Positions 17,767-55,525 of a stretch of DNA of 64,000 nucleotides are shown here, one piece after another. The notes beneath the pieces are model-generated. The model saw only the letters and a program-made list of their open reading frames with translations, was not told the DNA's origin and did no database searches. Source of the DNA: Gammaproteobacteria bacterium (lineage in GTDB: Bacteria; Pseudomonadota; Gammaproteobacteria; JAUZRS01); NCBI GenBank assembly GCA_030949385.1, contig JAUZSP010000005.1, forward strand, positions 1 to 64,000. The letters run 5' to 3'. The first letter of the stretch is position 1, and the number at the start of each line of letters is the position of its first letter. The translations under genes were made by a program, and so were the position numbers.

Positions 17767-17781
17767 TATCATCTCCAAAGG

Positions 17782-19045: not shown

Positions 19046-20589
19046 ACCTCACCCAGTTGCGGGTGTCCCTTATCGCTCCCTTGATCGAGTTTATTCAGCG
19101 CGTTGACGTAGGCTTTCACCGAGGCCACCACAATGTCGGTGTCCGCTCCCTGACCGTTAATAATACGGCCTTCGTAAGTCAGACGTGTGGTCACCTCTCC
19201 CTGAGAATCCGTACCACTGGTGACATTATTGACCGAGTAGAGGGTCAATTCGGTGCCGCTGTTCACAATGGACTCAATCGCTTTAAAGGCCGCATCCACT
19301 GGTCCACCACCCGTGGCACTGGCGGAATGCTCCACCCCAGCCACCGACAAGGTCACGCTGGCGGTGGGGGTTTCACCGGTCTCGGAACAGGCTTTAACCG
19401 AAATCAACTGTACCGTTTCATTCTCAGCCACCAAATTGGCATCGGTCACCAAGGCTTGCAGATCGTCATCGTAGATCTCATGTTTTTTATCGGCCAGATC
19501 TTTAAAACGAGCAAAAGCCGCGTTCAACTCTTCCTCAGAGTCAAAGACAATATCCAGCTCTTCCAAGCGGGTGCGGAAGGCGTTACGCCCCGAATGTTTG
19601 CCCAGCACAATGCGGTTGTTGCTCCAGCCCACATCTTGAGCGCGCATGATTTCGTAGGTTTCGCGACTCTTCAAAATACCGTCTTGATGAATGCCCGACT
19701 CATGAGCAAAGGCATTCGCACCCACAATGGCTTTATTCGGCTGCACCGGAAAACCGGTGATGTTAGAGACCAAACGTGAACAGGGTACAATTTGCGTTGT
19801 GTCCAAAGTGGTGTTGCAGCTAAATACATCCTGGCGCGTTTGCAGTGCCATCACCACCTCTTCCAGAGCCGCGTTGCCCGCCCGTTCGCCTAAGCCATTG
19901 ATGGTACATTCAACCTGCCGTGCGCCGTGCAACACCGCCGACAGAGAGTTCGCCACCGCCAAACCCAAATCATTATGGCAATGCACGGAAAAAATCGCTT
20001 TGTCGGCGTTGGGAACACGCTCCATCAAATTATGGATCAATTGACCAAATTGATGCGGCACGTTGTAACCCACCGTATCGGGAATATTGATGGTGGTCGC
20101 ACCGGCATCAATCACCCGCTCAATTACACGACAGAGAAAATCCAACTCAGAACGCCCCGCATCTTCAGGCGAAAACTCGACGTTATCGGTGTAACGACGC
20201 GCCCGTTTAACCGCCTTAACCGCCTGTTCCACCACCGCATCGGGCTGCATGCGCAATTTATGTTGCATGTGAATCGGTGAGGTGGCGATAAAGGTATGAA
20301 TCCGTGCCGAAGCGGCCGGAGCCAAGGCTTCACCGGCACCGTCAATATCACGGTCGATGGCACGCGCCAAAGCACAGATGGTGCTCTCTTTAATGGTTTT
20401 AGCGATGACGTTCACCGCCTCAAAATCACCCTTACTCGCCACCGGAAAACCGGCTTCGATCACATCCACCTGCATCTTTTCCAACGCTTTGGCAATGCGC
20501 AGCTTTTCATCTTTGGTCATCGAAGCGCCCGGGCTCTGTTCGCCGTCACGCAAGGTGGTATCAAAAATAATTAATTTTTCTTTGCTCAT
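19042..20589 (-). CDS. leuA: 2-isopropylmalate synthase
   Basis: First committed step of leucine synthesis: condensation of 2-ketoisovalerate with acetyl-CoA. The 515 residues are normal for the family. The HMGL-like TIM-barrel N-terminus is [18 protein letters not shown], the metal-binding site [12 protein letters not shown] follows, and so does [13 protein letters not shown]-like [17 protein letters not shown]. The C-terminal region (about 390-515) is the LeuA dimer/allosteric domain that binds leucine for feedback inhibition. A promoter and possible leader peptide lie upstream (20680-20832). The ilvIHC genes lie upstream on the same strand. Confidence 0.97.
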
Positions 20590-37256: not shown

Positions 37257-37310
37257 TGCTGTCTCAAAAACACTCGTATTTAAAACTGCTACCAAAAATC
37301 ACACCCAAAA

Positions 37311-37335
37311 AAGCCGGAGAAACTCCGGCTTTTTT
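37311..37335. terminator. Bidirectional terminator between the pqi region and the multiheme gene
   Basis: AAGCCGGAG-AAA-CTCCGGCTT with A-rich left and T-rich right flanks, so it can end transcripts from both sides. Confidence 0.92.
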
Positions 37336-37361
37336 ACTTCATTTAAACAAACAAGCTCAGA

Positions 37362-40300
37362 TCAATCAAAGCCATTATCTGTCACCCGATGCTCCCCAAA
37401 ACGCTGCTTGAGAATCGTGCCGTTGGCGTTGTACTCATGACACGCACCACTGCAATCTCGTAACTCACTCACCGAGTACTTGGTGTTTGGCGTTTTTTGA
37501 TGCTCGCTGGCATCGTAATCATTCGCATGACAGGCCGCACAATCAGGTTGATACGCTGGAAAACGCCACGGAATCTGCTCGCTGTTACTGATGTGACAAT
37601 CTCGACACGCCAACCCGCCACGATGATCCCCAGGATAACTGGAAGTGGTGTGGCGGAAGGTCAAGCGAGATGACCAGCGTGTGGTGGTATGGCAACTGTC
37701 GCACTGCGCCGTGGTGACAAAATGACGACTGCCCTGCCCCGTGGCTGTCACGCCGTTGTGACAGGTTGAACAACGCCCCGCTGCGTTTTCATGGTTAAAG
37801 CCGCTGGTCTGCCAACTGCCTGGGCTGTGGCAGGTGTCGCACTGGGCGTTGGTGGGCAGATGATTGTTCGGTTTGCCGGTGGCATTTGTGCCGTTGTGAC
37901 AGGTTGAACACGTACCGCTGACGTTGCTGTGATCAAAACGACCACTGCCCCAACCGCCACTGGGCGAATGACAGGTTTCACAACCGGCATTGGTAATAAT
38001 ATGATCTGCCGGTTTACCCTCAGCCACGGTACCGTTATGGCAATTAGCACAACTGCCCGTCACCTCATTATGATCCACTCGCGTCACCGGACTCCAGTTG
38101 CCTGGGGTATGGCACGCCTCACAACGATTGCTGCTGCTGATGTGTGAACGGCTTTTACCCGAAGTGGAAACGCCGTTATGACAACTGGAACAATTGTTGG
38201 TCACAGTGCTGTGATCGAAAGTACCCGTATCCCAACCGCCCGGTTTATGACAGGTTTCACAATCGTTACCGGCGGTAATGTGATTGGCCGACTTGCCCAT
38301 CGCAATCACCCCATTATGGCAACTGAAACAGTTGCCCAACACGTCGTTATGATTGACCCGCGTCACGGGTGTCCAACGACCAGGGGTGTGGCATGACTCA
38401 CAATTGTTACTGGTACTGGCATGAGCCTGATGTTTGCCTTGCGCATTAACCCCGTTGTGACAACTGAAACAATTGCCTGTGATGTTGGAGTGATCGACGC
38501 TGCCCGACGACCAACTGTCGGTCGTGTGGCAATCGCCGCAGTTGTTGCTACTGGCAATGTGGTTGGCTTTTTTGCCTTTCGCAATCACACCGTTATGGCA
38601 CGTGGAGCAAGAACCGTTAATTTGGCTGTGATCCACTTTCGATACATTATCCCAACTGCCTGGCACATGGCAGGCTTCACAGACGTTGCTGCTGGCAATA
38701 TGGCGGCTGTTTTTGCCCTCTGCCTGCGTACCGTTGTGGCAACTGCTGCAATTGCTGCTGACCGTGCTGTGATCAAACTGCCCCGCCGACCAATCGACGG
38801 TGTTATGGCAGGTCTGGCAGTCATTACCTGAGGTGATGTGGTTGGCTTTTTTGCCCATCGCAATGGTGCCGTTGTGGCAGGTAAAACAGCTGCCCATCAC
38901 CGCAGCGTGATCCACTCGACTCACCTGCCCCCAACCGCTGGGGGTATGACAGCTCTCGCAACTGTTGCGACTGCTGATGTGATCCACCGATTTTCCGGTG
39001 GCGGTCACTCCGTTGTGGCAACTGGCGCAGTTGTCCACCACACCGCTGTGATTGAAGTTGGCCGTCGCCCAACTGCTGGGCGTATGGCAACTGTCACAGG
39101 CCTGATTGGTGACCAAATGGCTCCGTGTCTTGCCGCGCGCCGTGGTGCCGTTATGGCAACTGGCACAACTGCCCTGCACCTCGTTGTGATCGACGGTTTT
39201 GGCCGGTGACCAGATGCCTGCGGTATGGCAACTCTCACAGCGGTTGCTGCTGCTGATGTGACTGCGAGATTTTCCAGTGGCCTTATTGCCGTCGTGACAA
39301 CTGACACAACTGCCGCTGACGTTGGCGTGATTGAAGCTGGTGGAAGACCAATTCACCGGCGTATGACAGCTTTCACAATCGTTGCCGGTGGTGATGTGCG
39401 AGGCCGATTTACCCGTCGCCGTGCTGCCGTTATGGCAACTGGCACAGCTGCCAATTACCTCGTTGTGATCCACGCCACTGACCGGCGCCCATTGCGCTCC
39501 CGCTCGATGGCAACTCTCACAACGGCTGCTTGTATTAATGTGTTTTGTCGATTTACCACTGGCGTTGCTGCCGTTGTGACAACTGGTGCAGTTGCTGGTG
39601 ACGTTGTTGTGATTAAAGCTGCCCGAAGACCAACCGCTGGTGCTGTGGCAACTCTCACAATCGTTGCCACTGGTGATGTGTTGGGCGCTTTTTCCCGTTG
39701 CCTGAACGCCGTTATGACAGCTGGCACACGAGCCTCTTAAACCACGGTGATCAAAGGTGGTGCTCCAACTGCCGGTGTTGTGGCAACTCTCACAATCACT
39801 GCCACTGACAATATGTCGCGCCGATTTGCCATTGGCAATGCTGCCGTTATGACAACTGACACAAGAACCGGCAATCTGGGCGTGATCCATGGTGCGAATC
39901 GGCACCCAACCCACAGGCGTGTGGCACGATTCACAGCTGTTGCTGCTGCGCACATGACTGCTCGATTTACCGCTGGCGCGAGCACCGTTGTGGCAACTGG
40001 CACAGCTACCACTGATGCCAACGTGGTTAAAATTCGACAGCTTCCAGCTACTGGTACTATGACAAGTTTCACAATTATCACTGCTGACAATGTGATTGGA
40101 GCGCTTTCCTACGGCGGTGAAAGAGTTGTGGCACTGCACACAATCACCCACAACATCCGCATGGGTAAAGTTGGCCGCCCAACCGCTGGTGCTGTGGCAG
40201 CTCTCACAATTATTGCTGCTGGGAATGTGTAAGGAGCGTTTTCCGGTGGCCACAGTGCCGTTATGGCAGCTGGCACAGCTGCCTTTAACGTTGTCGTGAT

Positions 40301-40835
40301 CAACCTTGCCGCGCACCCGCCAAGAGAGGGAGTTATGGCAGGATTCACAGTTTTCACTGCTGTTGATGTGTTGTTTTGACTTACCCGTCGCCTTCACATT
40401 GTTATGGCAACTGGAACAGGCCTCAGTAACGTTTTTATGGTTAAAGCGCACATCGGACATACGGGTGGTGGTGTGGCACTCTTCACAACTCGCATCCGTA
40501 TCAATGTGGCGTGAATGTTTGCCCACGGCCAAAATACCGTTGTGACAACCCGCACATTGGGTTGGCGTACCTTTAAAGACCCCGCGCACATGACAGGTTT
40601 CGCAATCCACTGTCAGATGGGTTCCGCTAAGAGGAAAACTGGTGTTCCAGTGATCAAATTTCTCTTTGACTGCACCCTGCACCACCGCAGGAGAGAGCCA
40701 TAAAAACAGCAGCAATAAGCTGCTAAACAGACCCGCACTTGCACGCACTCGATGATCTTGTTTCCACATAAAACCACGCTCCCAGCGACGGATCATCCTT
40801 ATCCTGAGTTGTTCCCAATTCAATTTATTTTCCAC
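37362..40835 (-). CDS. Giant multiheme c-type cytochrome (about 46 heme motifs)
   Basis: An exported 1157-residue protein with a membrane-targeting segment near residues 33-55 (SAGLFSSLLLLFLWLSPAVV). By hand count it has 45 CxxCH motifs plus one CSGACH (CX3CH) close to the end, about one heme per 25 residues. Most of it is a ~48-residue tandem repeat: CxxCHNGxxATGKSxxHI, then CExCHxxxxWxxxxFDHxxVxGS. Each repeat has two heme sites and two further histidines, as expected for bis-histidine ligation. The pattern resembles doubled-CXXCH cytochromes. It likely acts as a long periplasmic or extracellular electron wire. Its partner is not adjacent; the heme-lipoprotein operon begins 3.4 kb away. Confidence 0.93.
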   Translation of the reverse strand: MENKLNWEQLRIRMIRRWERGFMWKQDHRVRASAGLFSSLLLLFLWLSPAVVQGAVKEKFDHWNTSFPLSGTHLTVDCETCHVRGVFKGTPTQCAGCHNGILAVGKHSRHIDTDASCEECHTTTRMSDVRFNHKNVTEACSSCHNNVKATGKSKQHINSSENCESCHNSLSWRVRGKVDHDNVKGSCASCHNGTVATGKRSLHIPSSNNCESCHSTSGWAANFTHADVVGDCVQCHNSFTAVGKRSNHIVSSDNCETCHSTSSWKLSNFNHVGISGSCASCHNGARASGKSSSHVRSSNSCESCHTPVGWVPIRTMDHAQIAGSCVSCHNGSIANGKSARHIVSGSDCESCHNTGSWSTTFDHRGLRGSCASCHNGVQATGKSAQHITSGNDCESCHSTSGWSSGSFNHNNVTSNCTSCHNGSNASGKSTKHINTSSRCESCHRAGAQWAPVSGVDHNEVIGSCASCHNGSTATGKSASHITTGNDCESCHTPVNWSSTSFNHANVSGSCVSCHDGNKATGKSRSHISSSNRCESCHTAGIWSPAKTVDHNEVQGSCASCHNGTTARGKTRSHLVTNQACDSCHTPSSWATANFNHSGVVDNCASCHNGVTATGKSVDHISSRNSCESCHTPSGWGQVSRVDHAAVMGSCFTCHNGTIAMGKKANHITSGNDCQTCHNTVDWSAGQFDHSTVSSNCSSCHNGTQAEGKNSRHIASSNVCEACHVPGSWDNVSKVDHSQINGSCSTCHNGVIAKGKKANHIASSNNCGDCHTTDSWSSGSVDHSNITGNCFSCHNGVNAQGKHQAHASTSNNCESCHTPGRWTPVTRVNHNDVLGNCFSCHNGVIAMGKSANHITAGNDCETCHKPGGWDTGTFDHSTVTNNCSSCHNGVSTSGKSRSHISSSNRCEACHTPGNWSPVTRVDHNEVTGSCANCHNGTVAEGKPADHIITNAGCETCHSPSGGWGSGRFDHSNVSGTCSTCHNGTNATGKPNNHLPTNAQCDTCHSPGSWQTSGFNHENAAGRCSTCHNGVTATGQGSRHFVTTAQCDSCHTTTRWSSRLTFRHTTSSYPGDHRGGLACRDCHISNSEQIPWRFPAYQPDCAACHANDYDASEHQKTPNTKYSVSELRDCSGACHEYNANGTILKQRFGEHRVTDNGFD
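37760..40350 (-). repeat. Tandem coding repeat of the multiheme cytochrome
   Basis: About twenty imperfect units of roughly 145-150 bp, each encoding two CxxCH motifs. Units differ mainly at the four residues after the second heme motif (for example TPVGW, STSGW, TPGSW). Such arrays evolve by unequal recombination and may also be misassembled; boundaries are approximate. Confidence 0.85.
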
Positions 40836-42021: not shown

Positions 42022-43857
42022 ATGAAGCGCCGACACTCACGATTACTGCTGATTTTACTGCCCCTGCTGCTGCTTATTAACACCAGTCAGGCCGAACAGA
42101 AAGTCACGAATAGAATCGTCGGCGGCACCCCCTCCGTAGCAGGAGCCTACCCTTGGATGGTGAGCTTACAGGATAATTTTGGCCACTTCTGCGGCGGTTC
42201 ACTGATCGCAGATCGTTGGGTACTCACCGCTGCACACTGCACATTCGATAACAATAACACCCCCCTTCCAGCAAGCCAATTGCACGTCGCCATTGGCATT
42301 AACACGCTCGACTCTGTCACCCCAAACCAACTTATCACCGTAAAAACCATCCACATACACCCCGATTACACCCACAATAGCGGCAGCGACAGTGACATCG
42401 CTTTATTAGAACTGTCACAAACAAGCAATCAAACACCAACGCTCACCGCCACACCGTCTTTAATGAACCAAATCGCCGTTGCCAGCCCCTTAAGAGTCAT
42501 GGGCTGGGGAGTACTGCAAGAAAATGGGCGAGCCTCAAATACATTGCAAGAAGTCGATCTGCCCTTGGTCAGCCAAAACAGTTGCAATCAATCTTACGGC
42601 GGTGGCATCACCGACAACATGCTCTGCGCCGGTTTTGCTGCGGGTGGCAAAGACAGTTGCCAAGGTGACAGCGGCGGCCCGCTGTTGTATCAAAACAACG
42701 GTGTCTGGCATCAAGTAGGGGTGGTCAGTTTTGGCAATGGCTGTGCTCAAGCTGGATTCCCTGGTGTTTACACCCGCGTCGCCAATTACGAATCTTGGAT
42801 AAAAGAGTTTGTCCAAGGCGTGCAACTGGAAGGCAGCACCGCCTTTGGCGTTATTCCACAACAAAGTTCCCCCGCCAGCAGCAGCCTTACCCTCAGAAAC
42901 AACAGCAACGACAGCCAACAGATACAGAGCATCGGCCTCGATAATACCAGCGTGTTCAGCATCAGTCAGGATCTCTGTAGCGGTATCACCCTAGCCTCCG
43001 CTCAGAGCTGCACCCTCGCCTTAAATATGGACACCACAGCAGCAGGGAGACACACCGCCCAGCTCAGCATCAGCCTAAGCAACCTACTGCCTCCCATCAG
43101 CCGCCAGCTAAGCGGCACCATTGCTACCCCGATCAACTTCAATCCAGCCATTGATAATCTGGGATTAAATTGGTACCAAGCAGACGATACTCCATGGAAA
43201 AACGACAGCAGCGGCTTAAATGGCAACGCAGCTCTACGCAGCGGTACCATCAGCGATCAGCAAAGCAGCACCGTTGTCACCCAAATCAGCGGCCAAACTT
43301 CTTTCTCTTTTAACTGGAAAGTTTCATCAGAAAGAAGCTACGACCAACTGAGCTTGTATATTGATAATATTTTGATGGAAAGCATCAGCGGCACTCAGAG
43401 CTGGGCCAGTAAAAGTTATCCTCTTGATCTAAGTGAGCATATTATTGTATGGCGCTATACAAAAGATGCATCCATCTCGACCGGCGAAGATGCTGGCTGG
43501 ATCAATCAGGTGAGCAACCAAGTTATCAGCCAATCCCCGCCCGTACTTAGTTTAATCGGTGCCAACCCGATGAACTTAAACCTCGGTGATCGTTATTTTG
43601 AACACGGTGCCAGCGCCATTGACAATGAAGACGGCGATCTCAGTAACAAAATTATAATCAGTGGCAGTGTCAACACCCAACAAACTGGAACCTACCTACT
43701 CACCTACCGTGTTAACGATTCTGCCGGCAATCAAGTCAGCCTACAACGTCGTGTGATTGTCACCAATAACAGTACAGCCATTGATGGCAGCGGTCTGCTC
43801 ACTTGGCCCATATTGCTGTTCGGCTTTATTGGCCTATTTCTTTTAAAACGGCATTAA
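42022..43857 (+). CDS. Trypsin-like serine protease with GlyGly-CTERM-like C-terminal anchor
   Basis: Secreted chymotrypsin-fold protease of 611 residues with a signal peptide and then the zymogen cleavage site RIVGG (31-35). The catalytic triad is His72 in LTAAHC, Asp125 in DIALLE and Ser217 in GDSGGP. Asp211 before the Ser (KDSCQGDSGG) predicts trypsin-like specificity. The following ~330 residues are beta-rich, with an Ig-like DGDLSNKI...GTYLLTYRVNDSAGN module. The end GSGLLTWPILLFGFIGLFLL plus KRH is a GlyGly-CTERM-type tail, processed by rhombosortase in other bacteria. Confidence 0.88.
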   Translation: MKRRHSRLLLILLPLLLLINTSQAEQKVTNRIVGGTPSVAGAYPWMVSLQDNFGHFCGGSLIADRWVLTAAHCTFDNNNTPLPASQLHVAIGINTLDSVTPNQLITVKTIHIHPDYTHNSGSDSDIALLELSQTSNQTPTLTATPSLMNQIAVASPLRVMGWGVLQENGRASNTLQEVDLPLVSQNSCNQSYGGGITDNMLCAGFAAGGKDSCQGDSGGPLLYQNNGVWHQVGVVSFGNGCAQAGFPGVYTRVANYESWIKEFVQGVQLEGSTAFGVIPQQSSPASSSLTLRNNSNDSQQIQSIGLDNTSVFSISQDLCSGITLASAQSCTLALNMDTTAAGRHTAQLSISLSNLLPPISRQLSGTIATPINFNPAIDNLGLNWYQADDTPWKNDSSGLNGNAALRSGTISDQQSSTVVTQISGQTSFSFNWKVSSERSYDQLSLYIDNILMESISGTQSWASKSYPLDLSEHIIVWRYTKDASISTGEDAGWINQVSNQVISQSPPVLSLIGANPMNLNLGDRYFEHGASAIDNEDGDLSNKIIISGSVNTQQTGTYLLTYRVNDSAGNQVSLQRRVIVTNNSTAIDGSGLLTWPILLFGFIGLFLLKRH

Positions 43858-44225: not shown

Positions 44226-44480
44226 TTACCTCCCACCCAAACCATAAAAATTCAGCTCTCGTTGAAACAGTTCACGCTCCAAGGGCAACAGTTCTTGATC
44301 TAAAACGCGGCCAAAATTCACCTCAGAGAGTTCACTCGGTTTGGCTGCTTTCCACGGTAAAAGATAGGTTACGGTGGGCAGTTCTTTATTGCCAATAATG
44401 GTGCTTTGCAGCTCGATGCGCTGTTCTGCCCAACTCAGCGGCGCAAACAAACACAATAGAATTAAGCCGATTTTCTGCAT
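44226..44480 (-). CDS. Small exported protein at the end of the TPR/heme-lipoprotein operon
   Basis: An 84-residue protein from the ATG at 44480 with AGGAAATA upstream. The signal peptide is IGLILLCLFAPLSWA, then a short mature part EQRIELQSTIIGNKELPTV with PLERELFQRELNFYG. No family was recognised. Its ATG overlaps the stop of the preceding TPR gene, so it belongs to the same transcript. Confidence 0.6.
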   Translation of the reverse strand: MQKIGLILLCLFAPLSWAEQRIELQSTIIGNKELPTVTYLLPWKAAKPSELSEVNFGRVLDQELLPLERELFQRELNFYGLGGR

Positions 44481-45037
44481 TATTTCCTCCGCTCCAAATC
44501 CAGAATCCAACCTGCTACCTGTTTGTCTTTAGCGCCACTTTGCTGTTGAAATTGTTTATACGCTTGCAAAGCGCAAACGGGACGATTCAGATAAAGATCG
44601 CATAAAACACCCAAATTCAATCGCGCCAAAGCGTATTTTGGTGCTATCTCAAGGGCTTTTTCATAGGCCAATTTTGCGGCCTCAAAATCCCCCCTGCGGC
44701 GCAGTAACAGCCCCTGTTGATTCAACCCCGCCACATGCTTGCCGTCCAGCGCCAATAACGTCTCCACGGCCACCATCGCCGCTGAGTCTTTACCTAAATG
44801 AGTCTGGACAATGGCCAAATTTAGATACGCCCCTGGCAATGTTTTATCCACTGAAACAACGCGTTTAAACAGACGCTCTGCGGCGCGATACTCTTTGGCT
44901 CGCATCCTCGCCAAACCCTGCTGAAACGGTATTTCCACCGCACTGGGAACCGACTTTTTTTGCTCTGAAGAGAAGTTAGGCATAGCAGCACACGCCGTAA
45001 TAAAAAGTGGCAGCAACAGATTAATAAGCACTTTCAT
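44480..45037 (-). CDS. TPR lipoprotein
   Basis: The 185-residue lipoprotein has lipobox FITAC (Cys16). Three to four TPR units follow (for example PGAYLNLAIVQTHLGKDS and AKLAYEKALEIAPKYALARL). TPR lipoproteins usually serve as scaffolds at the outer membrane. It overlaps the large TPR lipoprotein gene by 17 bp and is followed by the small exported protein. Confidence 0.75.
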   Translation of the reverse strand: MKVLINLLLPLFITACAAMPNFSSEQKKSVPSAVEIPFQQGLARMRAKEYRAAERLFKRVVSVDKTLPGAYLNLAIVQTHLGKDSAAMVAVETLLALDGKHVAGLNQQGLLLRRRGDFEAAKLAYEKALEIAPKYALARLNLGVLCDLYLNRPVCALQAYKQFQQQSGAKDKQVAGWILDLERRK

Positions 45038-47831
45038 ACGCCGCCTCCATACGCTCTTGTTTGTTGTAACGCACTGGCAACAACAACGCTAATTTTTTTA
45101 TGCTCTGCTGCACCCAATGATCATAAATGCCCTTGGCAATTCGCCCCTGATTCAATTCGTGCAATTCAATCGCCTGCTCTTCAAAGGGAATCGCTCGCTC
45201 TTCCAATAAAATACCGTACTGCTCCAATGCCTCAGTATCCAAACCTCGTGGCCGTTGGGAGTTCATTAATGCTTGGCTAAAGTCAGTGTAGAGATCACCC
45301 AGTTGATAAGTCGCTTGCGTCGTCACCTGCGCCACGCCCAAGCTGGCAATGGAATCCAGTGCCTTAACCGCCTTTTGCATGGCTGATTTTTTCTTTTTCA
45401 AGTTTGTTTGCAACGGCTCACGCAACCGCACACGGCGATAATCTGCCAACAAAGGCTGTGCTAATTTAATCTGCGCCTGCGCCAACAAAAACAACATTCG
45501 CTCACTGCGCGCACGGCGAGGTGCGCTGCGATAACTCTCTTCAATCTGCCGCAACCAATAGCGCCTTTTTTTACTGTTACGCACGTTTTTATACAGGCTC
45601 GAAAGACGAAATTGCGCTTCCATTTTCAACTCAATGGGCGCAGGAAAACGATAGACATAAAATTTATTGATCTCGATCGCTGCTGCTGTTTTACCGCTGC
45701 GTAAATACAATTTAGCCGCTTGCATCGCCGCTTCTCTGGCCACAACCTCACTGCTGCTTTTTGAACGCGCCAAGGTTTCATACGTAGCGGCGGCTTTATC
45801 AAATTGTGACGATTTCAGATAGACAAAAGCCAGTTTTTGGCTCACCTCATCGGCCAATGTATGTCGAGGATAATTTCTCTGAAACGCCTGCAAACGCGCC
45901 GCCGCCTTGCGCCACTGCTGCAATGCCAACAACTCCGTAGCCGCATCGTAAACCGAAATCGCCTGTAATGTTTTATTCGGCGCGTGCAGTGCCGCACGAC
46001 TAAACAACTCATAAGCCGTTTGATGCTGTTTTTCCGCTCGATACTCCAGCGCCAAATTATGCTCAGCCACGGTTAATCTTTTTTGCACCTCCAGACGCTG
46101 CCGCCGCTGTTTTCTGTTTTTAGCGTGTAAGTGTTGCAGCGCCTGTTCATACGCCAAAGCGGCATCAGAAAAATAACCTTGTTTAAAATTCACATCGGCC
46201 AACAGCGTCCAGATCACTTGCCGCTGCTGTTGATTCAGATTTTTCTGCCATAAAAGCCACTGCGCCAGTTGCCATGCCTGACCCCACTCCCCACGCTGAA
46301 AACGCTGCTCGGCGGCCTGCAACAGCACCGCCACTCCCTGCGGATGCTGTGGATAACAGTACACCAAACGCTCTGAGTTTATTAATACCTGAGTTTGCCA
46401 AAACGCTCGCTGCGATTTTTTTGCGCGCCGCTGCAGACGCTGATAGGTGGTGATGGTTTTATAGGCCGCCTCCAACGCCTCGGGATGCAGACCATATTCA
46501 TAGGCACTCTGCTCATACGCCCGTGCTGCTTCACGATCACGACCCAAGACCACCAACACCTCCGCTTTACCAAACGAGGCGGTGGCACTGCTGGAAGAGT
46601 GCGGGAAAAAATTTAACGTGGTTTGATACCAACCCAACGCGTGCCGATAATCTCGTTTCTGTCTTGTTTTACGCCGCTGTTTTTGTCCCCGCGCATGATA
46701 ATAACGCGCCAGATCATTCAAGTGTTCTTGCAACGCCTGTTGAATTTCAGGCCACGCCTCAAGCTGATGTTGTTGCCAAAAAGGCGCATCCAAACCGTAA
46801 CGACGAATGTAATCGGTTTTGGCTTGAATCACCTGTCGATTGAAACCCGAACGCTGATAAATTTCGATCAGACGACTGTGAAACAACGGCGCTTGAACAC
46901 TCAAAGGGCGACGATCAATAAAGGCTTGATAACTGGCCGCCGCATCGGAAAAACGCTCTTTTTTACGATAAAACAGCGCCAAACGAGTGTAAAACAGCGC
47001 CTCATAACGCGCCCCTTTTGGCATCTTTTTTAAAACAGCGTCAGCAAACTGAGTTAACACCAACACCCCACCTTGAGCAGAAAACCCCAAACTCATGACG
47101 CGCAGCAGATCATCAATCTGCTCTTGATCGGCACGGGAGAGCTGTTTAATCTGTTTCTGAGGAAATTCAGCAGCGCCCAATTGCTGTTGCAACAAAGTCA
47201 TAAAATGATTACGACTGGCACTGTATTTTTGCTGTTTAAATTGACTCCAACCCAACATAAACAGAGCTTGACGATAAAAAACACCGCCGTCTCCTTGAGC
47301 CAAAACCGCTTGATAGGCTTTTTCTGCCAATGCATATTGACCCGCACTGAACCACAGTTGAGCCAAACGAAACTGACTTTCAACAAACAACTCAGACTGT
47401 GGATAATCAGCCAGCAAACGCTGCAAAGTAATGATAACTTGATCCGGCTGAGCTAAATAATCATAAGCCCGAGCCAGTTGATACAACACCTGATCAGTGC
47501 GGATAAAGTTAGAATGCTGGTTTAAAATACGTTGATAAAGCTGCGCCGCCTCACGCAACGCACGTTTGTCACCATCAGCATCGCTACCCTCATCCAGCCG
47601 CAGATCAGCCAAGCGCCGCAAAATTTCCGGGCGAGCGCTGGGGTTTTTTGATTCCGCTAACAGCTGGCGATAACTCGCAACGGCCAACTGCCGTGGCGCA
47701 GCAGACACGCTTACTGTTTTTTCTGGCTTGGGCAACGCCTGAGTGCTTGGCAAACTGGCCAAGGTTGCCGGACGCTGAGATGCACAGGAGAGCAAAAAAA
47801 ACAGCGTCAGGCCAAGCAAAAAAGACCTCAT
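45021..47831 (-). CDS. Large TPR-repeat lipoprotein
   Basis: The 936-residue lipoprotein has lipobox FLLSC (Cys16) and then TPR-like helices over almost its whole length. Examples are LYQRILNQHSNFIRTDQVLYQLA, truncated here, and FRLAQLWFSAGQYALAEKAY. The arrangement recalls large TPR proteins of envelope machines such as the AglT/GltE group of gliding-motility systems, but that link is only by architecture. It overlaps the genes on both sides (4 bp upstream, 17 bp downstream). Confidence 0.75.
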   Translation of the reverse strand: MRSFLLGLTLFFLLSCASQRPATLASLPSTQALPKPEKTVSVSAAPRQLAVASYRQLLAESKNPSARPEILRRLADLRLDEGSDADGDKRALREAAQLYQRILNQHSNFIRTDQVLYQLARAYDYLAQPDQVIITLQRLLADYPQSELFVESQFRLAQLWFSAGQYALAEKAYQAVLAQGDGGVFYRQALFMLGWSQFKQQKYSASRNHFMTLLQQQLGAAEFPQKQIKQLSRADQEQIDDLLRVMSLGFSAQGGVLVLTQFADAVLKKMPKGARYEALFYTRLALFYRKKERFSDAAASYQAFIDRRPLSVQAPLFHSRLIEIYQRSGFNRQVIQAKTDYIRRYGLDAPFWQQHQLEAWPEIQQALQEHLNDLARYYHARGQKQRRKTRQKRDYRHALGWYQTTLNFFPHSSSSATASFGKAEVLVVLGRDREAARAYEQSAYEYGLHPEALEAAYKTITTYQRLQRRAKKSQRAFWQTQVLINSERLVYCYPQHPQGVAVLLQAAEQRFQRGEWGQAWQLAQWLLWQKNLNQQQRQVIWTLLADVNFKQGYFSDAALAYEQALQHLHAKNRKQRRQRLEVQKRLTVAEHNLALEYRAEKQHQTAYELFSRAALHAPNKTLQAISVYDAATELLALQQWRKAAARLQAFQRNYPRHTLADEVSQKLAFVYLKSSQFDKAAATYETLARSKSSSEVVAREAAMQAAKLYLRSGKTAAAIEINKFYVYRFPAPIELKMEAQFRLSSLYKNVRNSKKRRYWLRQIEESYRSAPRRARSERMLFLLAQAQIKLAQPLLADYRRVRLREPLQTNLKKKKSAMQKAVKALDSIASLGVAQVTTQATYQLGDLYTDFSQALMNSQRPRGLDTEALEQYGILLEERAIPFEEQAIELHELNQGRIAKGIYDHWVQQSIKKLALLLPVRYNKQERMEAAYESAY

Positions 47832-48085
47832 GGCAAACTCTCACCCTTAACCCGCTCAAGACTCTCCGCTCGCGCCAATTTGGACTGCTGGATCAAACGC
47901 TGCAATCGCACCGCCTGTTTTTGCAGTTGCCGAGCCACCAACTGTTTTAAATGACTGCGCCACTTTGGTAAAAGACGCTGCAAACGATTTGAGATGCCAG
48001 ACAAACGCCGTTGTAACCGTCGCAAAGACCGATCATCAGCAGGTTTTACCGTGAACTTTTTAATGCGATGATTTTTTGCCGCCAC
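47828..48085 (-). CDS. Small basic coiled-coil protein, hypothetical
   Basis: An 85-residue, very Arg/Lys/Gln-rich protein (RRLQRRLSGISNRLQRLLPKW) predicted as a long amphipathic helix or coiled coil. No signal peptide is seen. Its start overlaps the preceding TPR gene by 40 bp, which is more than its neighbours, so the true start may be later. The stop overlaps the next gene by 4 bp, which supports it as a real operon member. Confidence 0.5.
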   Translation of the reverse strand: MAAKNHRIKKFTVKPADDRSLRRLQRRLSGISNRLQRLLPKWRSHLKQLVARQLQKQAVRLQRLIQQSKLARAESLERVKGESLP

Positions 48086-49224
48086 TGTTGAAGGTTATCT
48101 TCCAACTGACTTAATTCACGATAATCCCACAACGACTCTTGCAGGTCGTGACTGGCCAGCAATTGCGGCAATCCGTAATGACCTTGAGTCTCAGCCAATA
48201 CGCTTAAATCCAACAACCATTCATCGTCACGCAATAACAGACGTGTCTGCTCTAACTGCTCAGAACTCTGGTGCAGATGAGCCACAGCCTGCTGATAATA
48301 CTCTGCCGCTCGCGCCGGTTTTTGCCACTGCATCAACAACTCTGGAATCGCCAACCAGACCTCTTGCACCGCCAGATCATCAGCGGAACGCTCAGACAAC
48401 TGCAACCACGGGCTAAGCGCCGCCGCATAACGATTTTGATGCAACCGGCTCCAACCCAACGCCAACAATGCACGGCTGCTGTGCAGACCCTTCAAGGAGA
48501 CCTTAAGCAGTGCCGTCTCCGCCGCTGCGGGGCGTTTTTCTCGCAACGCAAACAAGCCCAACGTTAAATTGGTTCGATCTTGCAGTGCCACCTGTTCGCT
48601 GTTCTGCACCGACAAATCAGCCAAACTCTGCAACTGCTGCAACGCCTGTTGTTTATCCAGAGAAACAGCGATCATGGCGCGATTATAAACCGCGTACCTT
48701 GCGTACAACTCTGGCCAATGGGCATTCAAGGTCTGCAAGGCTTTTTCACGCTGGCCAGTTTGGCTCTGAATCTGCGCCAATAAAAGACGGCCTTTGGCTT
48801 GCCATTCGCTGCTTATTTTTTCTGAATCAGAGAAAAATTTTATCTGTTGTAAAGCCGCCTCTGCCGCCACGCGATAACCGCGTCGATAACTCATTTCAGC
48901 CAACAGATACCAAGCACGATTACGCACTGCGCGTGGCTCTCCTTGTAACAGACGCTGAAAAATAGGCTGGGCTTTTTTATGCAAACCGTAAGCGAGATAC
49001 AACCCCGCCAATAACAGCTCCGCTTCGGTTTCATGATGAGAGAGTTGGCGCTGACGTTTAGCTGCCAGCAGTTTTACAATGGCGCTAAAATAATCCTGCT
49101 GATAGAAGTGGTAAAGCACTTCGCCGTAATGTGGGTCAAGCAGAGGCTTTAAATCTGTTTCCATCTCCGCCCGTGCAGAGAGAGAAAATAGAAAAGAAAG
49201 GAAAAAAATCGCAACCCTCACCAT
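48046..49224 (-). CDS. Periplasmic TPR protein
   Basis: The 392-residue protein has a signal peptide (VAIFFLSFLFSLSARA, cut before EME). TPR-type helical pairs follow (YGEVLYHFYQQDYFSAIVKL and others). It is likely a periplasmic scaffold. It overlaps the neighbouring genes by 7 bp upstream and 40 bp downstream within the same operon. Confidence 0.72.
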   Translation of the reverse strand: MVRVAIFFLSFLFSLSARAEMETDLKPLLDPHYGEVLYHFYQQDYFSAIVKLLAAKRQRQLSHHETEAELLLAGLYLAYGLHKKAQPIFQRLLQGEPRAVRNRAWYLLAEMSYRRGYRVAAEAALQQIKFFSDSEKISSEWQAKGRLLLAQIQSQTGQREKALQTLNAHWPELYARYAVYNRAMIAVSLDKQQALQQLQSLADLSVQNSEQVALQDRTNLTLGLFALREKRPAAAETALLKVSLKGLHSSRALLALGWSRLHQNRYAAALSPWLQLSERSADDLAVQEVWLAIPELLMQWQKPARAAEYYQQAVAHLHQSSEQLEQTRLLLRDDEWLLDLSVLAETQGHYGLPQLLASHDLQESLWDYRELSQLEDNLQQWRQKIIALKSSR

Positions 49225-49733
49225 TGGCTGATGACAAATTCCGGTTGCTGTTTTAGCTCTTTATCGCGGATTAAGACCTTAACAAACTGTGATTTTTCTA
49301 ATTTATGCAGTTTAAATGCTGCCGCCCGTTGATAGACTCGGTTATTAGGCCCAAGACCATAAAATATCACCCTTAATTCATACTCACCCGCCGCCAAATT
49401 AGCCGTGTAAAGCCGATGTACACCGCCCTTTTTAAGCGCCTCACGCTCCGACAAGCTGTAATCTGACGTTGTTACTGCCACTCCGTCTATTTTCAGCTGC
49501 AAGGAGTGCAGTTGAAAAAAAAAGCCAATATCCAGCGCCACAAACACCGTCACCCTCTGCTGCTGAGGGTAACGCAGCGCCTCGTCCAACTGCAGCAGCT
49601 CTTGGTTAAGCTGCAACACCTGCCATTTTAACGCCCGTGTTCGACTCTCCAGCTCTTTAAAACTCGGTTCTGCCAGTAAAGGAGCGGTGAGTAAAAAACT
49701 CAGTAGCAAAGCAAAACCTATTTGCCTCTTCAT
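49218..49733 (-). CDS. Exported protein with coiled coil and beta-sandwich-like domain
   Basis: The 171-residue protein has a signal peptide (IGFALLLSFLLTAPLLA), a short coiled coil (LESRTRALKWQVLQLNQEL) and then a beta-rich domain. HSLQLKIDGVAVTTSDY and ANLAAGEYELRVIFYGLG resemble PEGA or carbohydrate-binding-like folds. The function is unknown. It lies between the DUF3570-like barrel and a TPR gene. Confidence 0.6.
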   Translation of the reverse strand: MKRQIGFALLLSFLLTAPLLAEPSFKELESRTRALKWQVLQLNQELLQLDEALRYPQQQRVTVFVALDIGFFFQLHSLQLKIDGVAVTTSDYSLSEREALKKGGVHRLYTANLAAGEYELRVIFYGLGPNNRVYQRAAAFKLHKLEKSQFVKVLIRDKELKQQPEFVISQW

Positions 49734-49752
49734 ACCTCGTTAACTCAACCGC

Positions 49753-50817
49753 TCAATACCAAACGGAGAGATAAAGCTGCAAACTGTTAGCACCAAAACG
49801 GTAGGCATTGCCATCAAGATCGCTGTAATCGTCATAATCAAACTCCATCAACTCATAAGCCAGATTAAATGAGCCTTTATCCAACCCCCATTGACGCGGT
49901 GATGCCAAATCAAAACTGACTTTAGCCCCGAGGGTGTTGCTCTGATAACGGCTCAGCACTTTATCGCTGGCCATAAAATTAAAATTCTGCTCAAAACTGT
50001 CCTGATAAAAATTGGCTTGATCTTGAGCGTAATAACGATAGTAGAGATCCAATAACCAGTCACGCCGAAATTTTCTGCTAAAACCCAGCTCGACACTCTG
50101 TGCCGCCACCTGCCACGTATCCGCACGATAACGGTAATCAATCCGCCCGCTGCGACCTTCAGACCACGCTTTTTTAGCCCCAAAGGCAAAGATATTACTG
50201 CTGCGCGTCTCAGGATACAGCTCTACACCGCTGTTAATGCCTTGCAAACGACGATAAGGGTTGTTCAAATAACCGCTGTCATTGAGCGACTCGTAATCAA
50301 AACTCAAACGCAGATCATTGGTTAGCAACTGCGCCACCCCAACCTTATAATTAAAGTGCTCCGCTGACGCTTCAAAAGCCGAATCACTTAAATCCAAGAC
50401 CTGATCCACCCCACGAGAAAAAGCCAAACTGACGGTGCGATCACCCGCCAAAGCATGTGAAACCCGCAGAGAGAAACGATTACTCTGGTAATCAGACTCT
50501 TCACTACGGCTGTAGGTCAAACTCATCAATGAGTTGGCAAACTGATAGTCAACCGCAAAATCCGTTGCATCGCGCTGCTCTTGGCTCGGGCTGGCCGTCG
50601 CAAGCAGATCCTCGGGTAGACCACGAATCGACTCGCGTTGATAGGCAAAAGAGAGCGCATAACGCTCCGCAAAATGCTTACGCAGCAGCAGACTGGGCGC
50701 ATTCACCTCCACCCCATCACCTTGATAATAACGGTAGCTTAGATCCGAACGCTCTTCTGGTAACTCAGCCAATACCGCACAGCTTGCCAACAACAACACG
50801 CCTGTCCAGCGGCTCAT
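49753..50817 (-). CDS. Outer-membrane beta-barrel protein (DUF3570-like)
   Basis: About 354 residues from the ATG at 50817. The signal peptide is WTGVLLLASCAVLA, then ELPEERSDLSYRYYQGDGV and LLLRKHFAERYALSF, a pattern known from DUF3570 barrels. Many alternating aromatic strands follow, and the C-terminus LQLYLSVWY ends in an aromatic residue, as outer-membrane barrels require. The LASC in the signal could be read as a lipobox, but the barrel pattern argues against that. An upstream TTG would add 19 residues. Confidence 0.68.
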   Translation of the reverse strand: MSRWTGVLLLASCAVLAELPEERSDLSYRYYQGDGVEVNAPSLLLRKHFAERYALSFAYQRESIRGLPEDLLATASPSQEQRDATDFAVDYQFANSLMSLTYSRSEESDYQSNRFSLRVSHALAGDRTVSLAFSRGVDQVLDLSDSAFEASAEHFNYKVGVAQLLTNDLRLSFDYESLNDSGYLNNPYRRLQGINSGVELYPETRSSNIFAFGAKKAWSEGRSGRIDYRYRADTWQVAAQSVELGFSRKFRRDWLLDLYYRYYAQDQANFYQDSFEQNFNFMASDKVLSRYQSNTLGAKVSFDLASPRQWGLDKGSFNLAYELMEFDYDDYSDLDGNAYRFGANSLQLYLSVWY

Positions 50818-50878
50818 CCTTGAAACCCTATTGTCTGTTTTGCAGCCTCTCATGACACGTCTCACATTAATCAATTAA

Positions 50879-51550
50879 TTAAAAATAGAAGCTGGCTCCA
50901 ACGCTCACTTCCAAATTATGGGTTAAGGTTTTAACCCCAAGTAAATCACTCTCAAACAGTTGGTCTCTGACATCCACACGCAGATTGAGGCGCTCCAGCG
51001 GCACGACTCGATAACCAAAACCCAAGCCGTAGCTGAAATGATCCTGCTCAATAAAGCGCACATTGCCCACCCCAGCGAGCAGGTAAAACGCGCTGTTCCA
51101 AGCACGGTTTTTACCTAAAAAAGCCTCACCAGGAAATAAATTATAGCCCAGTGCCAACTGATAAAAATCCAACGGCTCCTCTTCTTGCGGGAAAATCACC
51201 AAACCCAGTTGACGATACGCACTGTCTTGCAGTTGAGAAACACCATAACTTGCATCAAGAAAAAAATCTTCGCTGACATAAAACGCCAAACGCACCCCAT
51301 ACAGAGGCTGTGTAGAAAAATGTTCTATGCTGATCGCCCCACCAAACACCCCCAATTCAAAATCCAACGCATCAATATTGGCCTCGACAACTTTAGGCCG
51401 CAATAACTGCGGTTCAATAACCACCTCGCGCTCCTGCAACGGCTCGGCCATTAGGGATGTGGACAGCAGAAAAAATCCAGCTCCGGCAACGCCCAATATT
51501 ATTCTGTTAAAAAAAGGCTGAAACACCCAATAACCACTCCGTATGTTCAT
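50879..51550 (-). CDS. Outer-membrane beta-barrel domain protein
   Basis: About 223 residues with a signal peptide (IILGVAGAGFFLLSTSLMA, cut before EPL). Paired beta-strands follow, ending VSVGASFYF with a terminal Phe. The pattern ELGVFGGAISIEHFST, then YGVRLAFYVSEDFFLDASYG, resembles small eight-stranded barrels of the type found in envelope-machine clusters (OMP_myx-like). The start is uncertain between 51550 and 51565. The 5' end overlaps the SH3-barrel gene by about 44 bp. Confidence 0.66.
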   Translation of the reverse strand: MNIRSGYWVFQPFFNRIILGVAGAGFFLLSTSLMAEPLQEREVVIEPQLLRPKVVEANIDALDFELGVFGGAISIEHFSTQPLYGVRLAFYVSEDFFLDASYGVSQLQDSAYRQLGLVIFPQEEEPLDFYQLALGYNLFPGEAFLGKNRAWNSAFYLLAGVGNVRFIEQDHFSYGLGFGYRVVPLERLNLRVDVRDQLFESDLLGVKTLTHNLEVSVGASFYF

Positions 51551-52238
51551 CTGCTTGATTGTCATCCACCAGCAGCAGGTAATCTTTGAGATCCAAACGC
51601 AACAGGAAACGACGAGTAATATAGCGTCTCAGCCCGATACCGGCAGTGATGGCAGTCGCATCCACGTTACGCGCATCCACCAAGGTCGCACGGGGACGAT
51701 TTTCAAACCGCCCCAGCCCCAAACTAAAATAGGGTGCCCACGTCAGTGACGGCATCGGACGCGAAACCAAAGCCAGTTGATACATATTCGAGCTAGAAAA
51801 AATCCCGCTCACATTCGACACCCCCACCTCCAGCAGCAAATTGGGGTTAAAACGATAACCGCCGCGCAGCATCGACACCGCATCCCCAGAAAATAGACCT
51901 CCGGCAAAACCCAGCTCCCACCGTCTGGCCAAATAATCCGCTTTGGCCACAGGGCGCAATTGCAAACTGGAACGATCTCGAAAGCGCAACTGCTCCAGTT
52001 GCGCCTGACTGATCCAACCCTCTTTGCCCTGAGCACGCACCTTAAACCAACTGGTTTTACGCCGCAGCAAACGCAGGCTCTGACCCTGCTCTACGGCATA
52101 AAAACGCGGATAAGCCTCTCCTGGCCCCGTACGCAGCTCCAAAAACGGCTGCACCACCCAGAGTGTCAGCGATTCAGCCTGCGCACCCGTGGCCAGCAAA
52201 AACAGCAATAACAACCTAAAAAGACGGCTAAAAACCAC
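51507..52238 (-). CDS. SH3-domain protein with C-terminal beta-barrel
   Basis: The 243-residue protein has a signal peptide (LFRLLLLFLLATGAQA). A bacterial SH3 domain follows at about 25-85 (LELRTGPGEAYPRFYAVEQG, then KVRAQGKEGWISQAQL). The second half is a small barrel like that of the next gene (WELGFAGGLFSGDAV..., ending LLGVSAFF). The SH3 part may bind peptidoglycan or a partner. It overlaps the heme-lipoprotein gene by 11 bp. Confidence 0.7.
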   Translation of the reverse strand: MVFSRLFRLLLLFLLATGAQAESLTLWVVQPFLELRTGPGEAYPRFYAVEQGQSLRLLRRKTSWFKVRAQGKEGWISQAQLEQLRFRDRSSLQLRPVAKADYLARRWELGFAGGLFSGDAVSMLRGGYRFNPNLLLEVGVSNVSGIFSSSNMYQLALVSRPMPSLTWAPYFSLGLGRFENRPRATLVDARNVDATAITAGIGLRRYITRRFLLRLDLKDYLLLVDDNQADEHTEWLLGVSAFF

Positions 52239-52737
52239 AGCGACTCAGCTCCACCGGCTGGCATTGACCGCAACGGGGGCTGTCCTGCTGCTCAACTCGA
52301 GTGGTGATCCAACTCAAAACCGCTTGATAACAGAGGTCGTTTTTGTTCGGGAAAATATCCCCACCCGTATGCGTACCACTGATGGCTGAAATGCCCTGCA
52401 ACGGCTCCAGCAACAGCTTGCTGTTCACCGGCTGATCCAAATTAGCAAACGCTTGAGCTGCCACAAAATTACTCTCCATCTGCGTTGAAACCGCTGCTGG
52501 GCTGACAAACACTTTAAAACCACCGCCTGAACCACTGGCAGGATTATGACAGCCGCTGGCAGAACAGCTCAGGCCGTTGTTATTAATATCCGTATGCAAA
52601 ATCGGATCAACACAGAGCTGATAATCGCTGCGACAGAGCGCCCGCCCCTGCTCTTGCAGTGGTTCAACAGTCACCTCTTGGCAACCAACCAACATCAACA
52701 AAACGGAGAGTAACAAAGATTTCTTATGGACAACCAT
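52228..52737 (-). CDS. Lipoprotein with a CX4CH heme-binding motif
   Basis: The 169-residue lipoprotein has lipobox MLVGC (Cys19) and contains CSASGCHNP, a CX4CH heme motif, plus other cysteine pairs (ALCRSDYQLC, RCGQCQP). It resembles small cytochrome-like lipoproteins next to HzsA-related genes. The heme motif is unusual, and binding needs proof. It overlaps the downstream SH3 gene by 11 bp and the upstream three-heme lipoprotein gene by 14 bp. Confidence 0.68.
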   Translation of the reverse strand: MVVHKKSLLLSVLLMLVGCQEVTVEPLQEQGRALCRSDYQLCVDPILHTDINNNGLSCSASGCHNPASGSGGGFKVFVSPAAVSTQMESNFVAAQAFANLDQPVNSKLLLEPLQGISAISGTHTGGDIFPNKNDLCYQAVLSWITTRVEQQDSPRCGQCQPVELSRCGF

Positions 52738-55525
52738 TGGCTGCTCCTGCCGCCCCGATCCACGCCGAAATCGTCAAATAATCCAGCTCCGTCGGTGACA
52801 ACACCGCCGCCCCGTTCACCGACAAATGGGGGGGACGATCCGTTTCAATGTTCAGCGCTCGTTTTAACAAGGCACTCTCCGCTGGCTGACAAACATCACT
52901 GATCATAGCCAGAGTCACATTAAAATCTCCCAAAAGATTGCCTGTGAGGACAAAATTACGCCCAACAAACGTACTGTTGGCCGCACCCAAGTCCGGCACA
53001 CCTCCCACACTGCTGCCAAAGGGCTGATGGCAATTGGCACAGCGGTTGATCAAAATCGGCTGCACCTCTTGCTCAAATAGACGTTCATCCAACCCCACCA
53101 CCGCTTGCACCAGCTCGGCCAAATCACGCCGACCGTTGCCATTGGCATCGGCTCCATAAGGATCATTACGGTACTGCGCACCGAGATCAATCCATTCTGC
53201 CAACAGGCGTTTTTCACTGCCATTGAGCATATTGCGATGATCAACGCTCATCACCGGCAACGCGGCGGTGGCCAACAGCTCCTGCTCGTTGAGTTTCTCC
53301 ATCAAGGCGCTGGAGCGCGAGGTTCCCCGTGAATTACCCACACTGACCAGCGGCGTTTGACGCAACAAAACCACCTCACCGTCATCAATTTGCACCACGG
53401 GCAAACCGGCACTGTCCAGCTGCGGTTTACCGATCAACAACGATTCATAAGAGGTGGAACGTCCCAGCGCACTGAGGCCATCGCTGAGATCCAGATCCGC
53501 CACTAAATCCGTGCCGTTATGGCAACGCACACAGGTTTCCACACCCGCCACACCTCGGCTCACACTCCAAAGAGACTGAATGTGTTCGGCGTAATTAATC
53601 ATGCCGTTTTGCGGTGCAGCCGTCGTTAAACCACGGTAATCAAGCAGCAGTTCGGTATCAATAACCCGCAGCGCCGGATCGGTCCAGAGATCAATAAAAT
53701 GCGGATCGCTGCCCAGATTCAACGCCGTCGGATCAAGACGAGTACGGGTCTCGGCCATCGACTCACCGTTTTCCGCCAACAGCAGCGTATTGGGGTGATT
53801 GCCGCTAATGGGAGCGGTGTTAAGCGCACTGCCGCGCCGTGGCGAATGACAACCGTTGCAGGTGCGCGTTTCGCCCGGACGGGCTTGAATCCAATTGGTG
53901 TGCATCTGCAACGCTCGGCCTTCGGCATCCACCACCGACAGTGCCAGCGGGGTGTCGGCAGGCACTTTCAGCTTGAAGGAACCGTCCGGTTCGATGGCGG
54001 CGTACCCCAAAATCTGCTGCATCTCAAAACGCGATGCCCCGATAAACTCCCGCGAGATCCCCGGCGGCGTGGGCAGCGCACGACTGACGCGCAGAAACCG
54101 CGCCGGTCGTTGTGCGGCGCGGGTTTGCAGCGGGTCTTTCAGTTTTGCCAGATCGGCTTTGCCGTTCAGCATCGGCAACGATTCGCTGGCCAGCAGAACA
54201 CTCTCTCCCATCAAATCCGATTGATCGGTGTCGTAGACACTTTTGACATTGAGAATGGCCTCACCTGCTGCCGCCAGCGCGGCGTTCAGCGGTTTGTCCG
54301 GCACCACAAAAGGCCGCTCACGAGGCATGATCGCAATGGGATCGGTTAATACCCAGCCCTCAGCGGCCAAGGCGATGGGGCGCTGGGTTTTTGTGTGCAG
54401 ATCAAACATATAAATGCCATAACGGGGCAGCCCTTCAACCACCTCGCTCACCCCACTGAACGGGTTGGCCTGCTGCACCGGTTGATAAGGGCTCCAACTG
54501 AGCAGCACGCGGTTGCTGCCATCCCAGAGCGGATAAGGGGTGGTGTAACGGCCTTTGTCTGAAATCTCTCGTCCTAGCGGCAGTTCAAACAAAGTCGCCT
54601 GCTGCTGTCCCGTACCCGTGACACCCTCAAACGCCGCTTGATCAATGTCGGTAAAGTTATCTTTGTCGATGATCAGCAAGGCTCCTCCTTCGTGCGTCCC
54701 CAATAAGGGCATCACCGAAGTGATGATCCGACCGTCTTGCATCTCACGGGGGTGCAGATAGCTGTTACCTGGACTAAACGCCCCATAAAGCACAAACAGG
54801 TTGGTGCCATCAGGATTACTGAAAAAGAGCGGGAAGTGATTTTTATCCCCCACATGATCCCAACGGGCAAAGAGCAGTTCGCCACTTTTGAGCACAGTCG
54901 GGTTGCGGTCGTGACTCTGATTAAAGGAGATCTGCTGCACGTTGCTGCCATCGGCGTTTATGGTGTGCAAGACAATGCTCGCCTCACGTTCGTATTCATC
55001 TCGGCTGGCAAACGGCTCCATGCCCTCGGCCTGCATCAGTTGACGGCTCTTTTGCTGCCGATCCGATGAAAAAACAATCCGACCGTCTGGCAGGTAGGCC
55101 GGGTCAACATCGTTACCTGCATTGGCCAGCGCATCGTCGCTGATCAGTCGCGTAAGGCGCTTATCGACAATGCTGTATTGCCACATGTTCCAACTGCTGT
55201 CCTGCGGCCCTTTCATGGAGAAGATCACTTTACTGGCATCGTAAGAGACCTCTGGATCAGAGACATCGCCCTGACCTTGAGTGTGGCCACGGGTGAGGTT
55301 AATCGGCTCCACACTGGGCGAGGCCAAATCCTTCCAAAATAAGTCACCACCCGCCGCCCAACGAATGCCGTCCACAGGGCTGCCCATGGTGCTGGCGTGA
55401 CGTTGCACATAAACAATGGGGAAATTACCCTCCACCACCACCGCGTTTTCCGGCTGCGAACAGCCGCTCAACAGCAGTGACAGCAACAACAACCAAACAA
55501 CGTAACCTGCTCTAAAGGTGATCAT
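52724..55525 (-). CDS. HzsA-like three-heme lipoprotein with beta-propeller
   Basis: The 933-residue lipoprotein has lipobox LLLSGC (Cys22). A WD40/TolB-like propeller covers about 35-400 (DPEVSYDASKVIFSM, YLPDGRIVFSSDRQ). A middle domain resembles the hydrazine-synthase alpha region, and CxxCH heme motifs lie at 556-560, 665-669 and 829-833. An EF-hand-like loop DANGNGRRDLAE lies near residue 793. It is not evidence for anammox: HzsA-like proteins occur widely with unknown roles. AAGGA stands seven bases before the ATG. It is the first gene of the tight operon. Confidence 0.75.
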   Translation of the reverse strand: MITFRAGYVVWLLLLSLLLSGCSQPENAVVVEGNFPIVYVQRHASTMGSPVDGIRWAAGGDLFWKDLASPSVEPINLTRGHTQGQGDVSDPEVSYDASKVIFSMKGPQDSSWNMWQYSIVDKRLTRLISDDALANAGNDVDPAYLPDGRIVFSSDRQQKSRQLMQAEGMEPFASRDEYEREASIVLHTINADGSNVQQISFNQSHDRNPTVLKSGELLFARWDHVGDKNHFPLFFSNPDGTNLFVLYGAFSPGNSYLHPREMQDGRIITSVMPLLGTHEGGALLIIDKDNFTDIDQAAFEGVTGTGQQQATLFELPLGREISDKGRYTTPYPLWDGSNRVLLSWSPYQPVQQANPFSGVSEVVEGLPRYGIYMFDLHTKTQRPIALAAEGWVLTDPIAIMPRERPFVVPDKPLNAALAAAGEAILNVKSVYDTDQSDLMGESVLLASESLPMLNGKADLAKLKDPLQTRAAQRPARFLRVSRALPTPPGISREFIGASRFEMQQILGYAAIEPDGSFKLKVPADTPLALSVVDAEGRALQMHTNWIQARPGETRTCNGCHSPRRGSALNTAPISGNHPNTLLLAENGESMAETRTRLDPTALNLGSDPHFIDLWTDPALRVIDTELLLDYRGLTTAAPQNGMINYAEHIQSLWSVSRGVAGVETCVRCHNGTDLVADLDLSDGLSALGRSTSYESLLIGKPQLDSAGLPVVQIDDGEVVLLRQTPLVSVGNSRGTSRSSALMEKLNEQELLATAALPVMSVDHRNMLNGSEKRLLAEWIDLGAQYRNDPYGADANGNGRRDLAELVQAVVGLDERLFEQEVQPILINRCANCHQPFGSSVGGVPDLGAANSTFVGRNFVLTGNLLGDFNVTLAMISDVCQPAESALLKRALNIETDRPPHLSVNGAAVLSPTELDYLTISAWIGAAGAANGCP

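Follow-up and report, generated by a model that had tools for sequence, protein, structure and literature searches.

A stand-alone PCC3-type multiheme cytochrome with 46 heme motifs from a gammaproteobacterium

A very long array of heme-binding motifs encoded away from any recognisable partner raises two questions: whether the array is real, and what such a protein would be connected to. The gene considered here lies within a 64,000-nucleotide stretch of a gammaproteobacterial contig, which we call the window (Table 1). Read from a GTG start, its open reading frame (ORF) holds 45 CXXCH motifs and a single CX3CH at residues 1128-1133, so that a scripted motif count agrees both with the hand count of a preliminary description and with its estimate of about 25 residues per heme. 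Residue-shuffled controls had a mean of 0.6 CXXCH and a maximum of 3, against the 45 observed. The two-heme repeat of about 48 residues described earlier is likewise present, as 20 diheme units of 45-48 residues. The heme-motif array is real and was correctly counted, and a chance reading frame is ruled out by homology and by dN/dS.

Table 1. Features of the window gene and of the PCC3 operon on contig C7 of the same genome (locus L007)
Feature	Location	Strand	Basis
Stand-alone PCC3-type multiheme cytochrome, 1157 aa	37362..40835	(-)	ORF, motif count, homology, dN/dS
N-terminal region, residues 1-54 from GTG, hydrophobic stretch typical of a Sec signal peptide	40674..40835	(-)	sequence inspection
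N-terminal cap, residues 55-98, hemes 1-2	40542..40673	(-)	cap identity to PCC3 subunits, invariant positions
Array, residues 99-1049, 20 diheme units and heme 43	37689..40541	(-)	unit comparison
C-terminal cap, residues 1050-1157	37365..37688	(-)	63% identity to 18-heme subunit
Heme 46 site, CX3CH (CSGACH), residues 1128-1133	37437..37454	(-)	script count
Intrinsic-terminator-like site, 3' of gene	37306..37336	(-)	14-pair stem then T-run
PCC3 inner-membrane protein, 291 aa	L007:8587-9462		two HX13H and SGXXG (SGLFG) read in sequence
21-heme cytochrome	L007:9500-11083		PCC3 operon, contig C7
18-heme cytochrome (extracellular-type subunit)	L007:11140-12555		PCC3 operon, contig C7
Porin-like protein	L007:12555-14630		PCC3 operon, contig C7

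The protein consists of a uniform array held between two distinct caps. Inspection of the N-terminal region found no lipobox cysteine, and an ATG at residue 23 is as plausible a start as the GTG; it would match the start of the 18-heme paralogue introduced below, whose N-terminus reads MWNSQNRP. Residues 55-1157 have a calculated apoprotein mass of 116.5 kDa. The N-terminal cap follows the pattern FDH..T.FPL.G.H...C..CH..G.F.GTP..C..CH, and the units of the array follow the consensus NGxxAxGKxxxHIxSxNxCExCH-W..DH..V..CxSCH. The C-terminal cap, common to many relatives, is marked by RH....YPGDH..L.C..CH, PAY.PDCA.CHA.DY, the CX3CH site and an EHRVTDNGFD end; Thiodiazotropha relatives carry a CX4CH at the position of the heme 46 site. 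Similarity is slightly higher between units two apart (0.52-0.54) than between adjacent ones (0.48-0.50), and the DNA has a period of 282 bp according to Tandem Repeats Finder, which together indicate a weak four-heme super-period of about 94 residues over the two-heme repeat. Since the longest exact DNA repeat within the gene is 22 bp, the gene sits inside a 103-kb contig, and the copy in a sister species aligns without gaps over 896 residues, up to its contig end, the number of units is unlikely to reflect collapse or expansion of the array during assembly. Recent expansion of the array was also considered and rejected, as similarity among units within the protein (0.52) is not above that between proteins (0.46-0.53). 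Unlike the window protein, several relatives have units that are more alike within a protein than between proteins.

The arrangement around the gene is conserved in one other species of the genus, with DNA 93% identical over 13 kb. In comparison with this sister species the gene has a dN/dS of 0.043, the 18-heme operon subunit has 0.040, and four neighbours of the window gene have higher values (0.11-0.39). The window gene is under strong purifying selection, and none of the 26 differences between the two proteins alters a cysteine or histidine of the sequence.

The candidate heme ligands of the array can be counted. Once H28, H107, H802 and H1149 are set aside as poorly conserved or in the signal region, 46 histidines outside the motifs remain for 46 hemes, the equality that had been claimed beforehand. 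In 41 motifs the form is H-X6-CXXCH, with a histidine seven residues ahead of the first cysteine. We aligned 307 residues from the mature start of the window protein with 15 homologues (34-97% identical). Every cysteine and histidine of the first 12 motifs is invariant across the 16 sequences, as are exactly 12 spacer histidines in the same 12-heme segment; among the other gapless columns, 13/228 are invariant. Because 12 motifs are matched by exactly 12 invariant spacer histidines, bis-histidine ligation has strong indirect support, the match being one of number and not a pairing of individual histidines to individual hemes. The all-bis-histidine wire of the preliminary description thus holds up in sequence (12/12), while AlphaFold gave no model good enough for positioning hemes or judging the distances between them, either at full length with 16 homologues (pLDDT 37, pTM 0.19) or for the N-terminal 307 residues (pLDDT 51). 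A Foldseek search of the PDB with this low-confidence N-terminal model returned no matches.

The relatives of the gene place its product in an already published family, PCC3, and it is the stand-alone copy that deserves follow-up. He et al. 2017 (PMC5566968) described PCC3, a porin-cytochrome complex, with medians of 34 extracellular and 21 periplasmic hemes and a maximum of 85; extracellular subunits of Gallionellaceae have 10-35 hemes (PMC10734462), and PCC3 subunits of the Leptothrix group have 10-57 (PMC13386937). A heme content that had been called among the higher ones known is high, and sits within the family's published range of 10-85 (PMC5566968, PMC10734462, PMC13386937). The function of PCC3 is unverified according to PMC12442390, and the extracellular location given for its cytochromes in the literature is based on localisation predictors.

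The genome also contains a complete PCC3 operon, on a different contig, C7. We recognised the complex by an inner-membrane protein (five helices, two HX13H motifs and SGXXG), a 21-heme multiheme cytochrome (MHC), an extracellular MHC and a porin, all of which this operon encodes, with the inner-membrane protein judged by its HX13H and SGXXG motifs. The window protein is 52-56% identical to the 18-heme subunit of this operon, and the likeness is greatest at the ends: the N-terminal cap is 76% identical and the C-terminal cap 63%, against 54-57% for the interior. The N-terminal cap is also 48% identical to a unit of the 21-heme subunit. In a tree of caps the window protein pairs with the PCC3 subunit of its own genus (support 0.895). 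Loci related to the window gene are mostly PCC3 operons, and where relatives have full operons the homologue mostly has the 21-heme gene on one side and the gene for the porin on the other; the closest relatives are subunits called extracellular, not the 21-heme ones called periplasmic. These comparisons make the window protein and the 18-heme extracellular-type subunit paralogues that share their caps, the window protein having the longer array. No porin, inner-membrane protein or 21-heme gene lies beside it, and it is therefore a homologue outside the cluster and not a component of one. Upstream of the operon on C7 lie two similar NHL beta-propeller proteins (L007:2-3164). In two distant genomes (L007:5003-8465 and L067:3568-7752), genes for a ferredoxin/FAD oxidoreductase-like protein and for a repeat protein lie next to PCC3, and their products are possible PCC3 accessory proteins.

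Comparison with known systems leads to the same family. Like PCC3 extracellular cytochromes, the window protein combines a homologous repeat and caps with many closely spaced hemes and low-complexity S/T/A/G/N-rich repeats; its 20 units lie within the 22-39 residues per heme of PCC3 repeats, and its homologues are encoded beside a 21-heme cytochrome, a porin and an inner-membrane protein. It differs in that its gene is solitary, has a terminator-like site to itself and lies on a contig other than that of the operon, and in having 46 heme sites where the operon copy of the same genome has 18. Pfam identifies cytochrome c7/c3-like repeats. The NCBIfam profile for MtrA/MtoA/DmsE (TIGR03508), likewise a packed multiheme wire, matches at 169.7 bits, which is below its cut-off of 192.2, and the 46 sites compare with ten hemes in MtrA. 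In a profile search of solved structures the best match is MtrC (2.5e-12, over about 140 residues); the other leading matches are a chain of 6r2q in the MtrA region, itself a weak sequence match, and UndA. For the OmcA/MtrC profile (TIGR03507) the score is 60 bits where 209 is the cut-off, and those proteins have mixed domains where the window protein has a uniform array. The genome has no match to the MtrB/PioB porin, so an MtrAB-type system was rejected, and of the two porin-cytochrome routes that the search covered, PCC3 and MtrB/PioB, only PCC3 is present. RuBisCO and DsrA are both present, from which the host is likely a sulfur-oxidising autotroph.

On balance, we favor the interpretation that the product is a secreted, rod-like wire of about 46 hemes, a paralogue of the PCC3 extracellular subunit that docks on the PCC3 base. 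About 46 c-type hemes would be attached, each held by the histidine of its CXXCH or CX3CH motif and by one spacer histidine, and stacked in line. Having moved out of the operon with an array longer than that of the operon copy, the protein would be located outside the outer membrane, where its caps may dock on the same porin and 21-heme base, replacing the 18-heme subunit or extending beyond it. The longer reach could then allow electron exchange between a sulfur-oxidising autotroph and an extracellular donor or acceptor. Docking is something we only infer, as none of the genes for that base adjoins the window gene.

An alternative, to which we give perhaps one chance in several, is that the protein remains periplasmic, a long wire or a reservoir between partners in the inner and outer membranes, with no docking on the PCC3 porin. 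A Sec-like signal, the lack of an outer-membrane anchor and the lack of an adjacent porin would all fit. Other cytochrome wires extend 7-10 Å per heme, however, and at that spacing 46 hemes would be longer than the usual width of the periplasm unless the chain were bent. The closest relatives, moreover, are the subunits called extracellular, and the caps are kept, including the EHRVTDNGFD end. On the other side, 46 hemes could store many electrons, in keeping with the electron-storage (capacitor) role that PMC10734462 suggests for cytochromes of PCC3.

It is rather improbable that the protein is instead released and polymerises end to end, independently of PCC3, into an extracellular filament like those of Geobacter. 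OmcS, OmcE and OmcZ are small subunits that polymerise, and the window protein, for which a comparable heme-wire function is predicted, differs in packing many hemes into one chain. A secreted product, a stand-alone gene and a regular array would suit a filament, distinct end caps could join monomers, and other genomes repeatedly have arrays apart from PCC3 operons. Yet OmcS, OmcE and OmcZ gave no sequence match and are absent among the matches of the protein to solved structures, where MtrC, the 6r2q chain and UndA are best, and subunits encoded in operons have the same caps.

A different partner had been proposed in the preliminary description, which read a shared role into the nearness of a heme-lipoprotein operon. 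The products of that operon (44480-55525) are TPR proteins and barrels, one of them DUF3570, together with a CX4CH lipoprotein and a triheme HZS-alpha-like lipoprotein. Among the loci examined, the triheme lipoprotein is never found beside this cytochrome family outside the genus; four genomes have the HZS-like lipoprotein and no member of the cytochrome family (G015, G044, G045 and G046), and six with the family are missing the lipoprotein. Co-occurrence among 55 relatives is weak, with p of 0.03, 0.10 or 0.26 depending on how a fragment match and sister species are counted. The operon is probably unrelated to the cytochrome, which by homology belongs with the PCC3 genes of contig C7. That the two work together is very improbable: the neighborhood is kept in the sister species and the operon has outer-membrane and heme features, but other genes on both strands intervene, and against it stand the separation outside the genus, the genomes that have one without the other and the weak co-occurrence. 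As an observation on the operon itself, its triheme lipoprotein combines HZS-alpha-like and PD40 domains and adjoins the CX4CH lipoprotein and outer-membrane barrels (52228-55525); eight further genomes of the class encode homologues of this triheme lipoprotein.

PCC3 cytochromes rank among the most heme-dense proteins known. With a compact PCC3 operon and a separate long wire in one genome, both strongly selected, wire length and partner choice can be compared cleanly, and since homologues follow the rule of one histidine per heme, the model of a bis-histidine wire is open to direct test.

Arrays with no PCC3 partner gene nearby are found in other genomes too: in a 52-heme and a 35-heme gene of G037, in a 36-heme lipoprotein of G034, and in G101 and G300, several of whose array-bearing contigs have no match to the inner-membrane protein, although short contigs limit the count there. 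We raise, tentatively and as less likely than the docked wire itself, the broader notion that bacteria with PCC3 may keep stand-alone long cytochromes as wires that replace or supplement one another on a single porin and periplasmic base, or else as released free wires. In the former case the array that is expressed, with 18 or 46 hemes here and up to about 130 in relatives, would set the reach of electron exchange. The arrays within operons of relatives are themselves long, with 67-84 hemes in several cases. At one locus, a single 4071-aa ORF (L083:4022-16237, G212:C17) has 133 CXXCH, 1 CX3CH and 10 CX4CH; the PCC3 inner-membrane protein (1175-2185) is at the same locus, and a porin (15421-19080) follows the ORF. 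A 3274-aa ORF elsewhere (L084:4984-14808, G101:C131) has 129 CXXCH and ends in a Pro/Gly/Met-rich tail that replaces the usual C-terminal cap. These relatives with about 130 motifs surpass the 85-site maximum of He et al. 2017 (PMC5566968). Tandem PCC3-type arrays of 37, 73, 34 and at least 24 sites occur at L066:4783-13424 (G037:C126), where the 37- and 73-site proteins have Pro/Gly/His-rich tails in the place expected for an EHRVSDxFD end.

Several other features of the window are worth recording. Near the cytochrome, a gene conserved in the sister species (42022-43857) encodes a trypsin-like protease whose C-terminus carries a hydrophobic anchor similar to a GlyGly-CTERM tail. Two 387-aa ORFs (5519-6682 and 9303-10466) lie 3.8 kb apart, each carrying a 132-aa antisense ORF at equal offset, which looks like a duplication. 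At 17376-17556, a 90-bp unit is present in two tandem copies that match at 95%.
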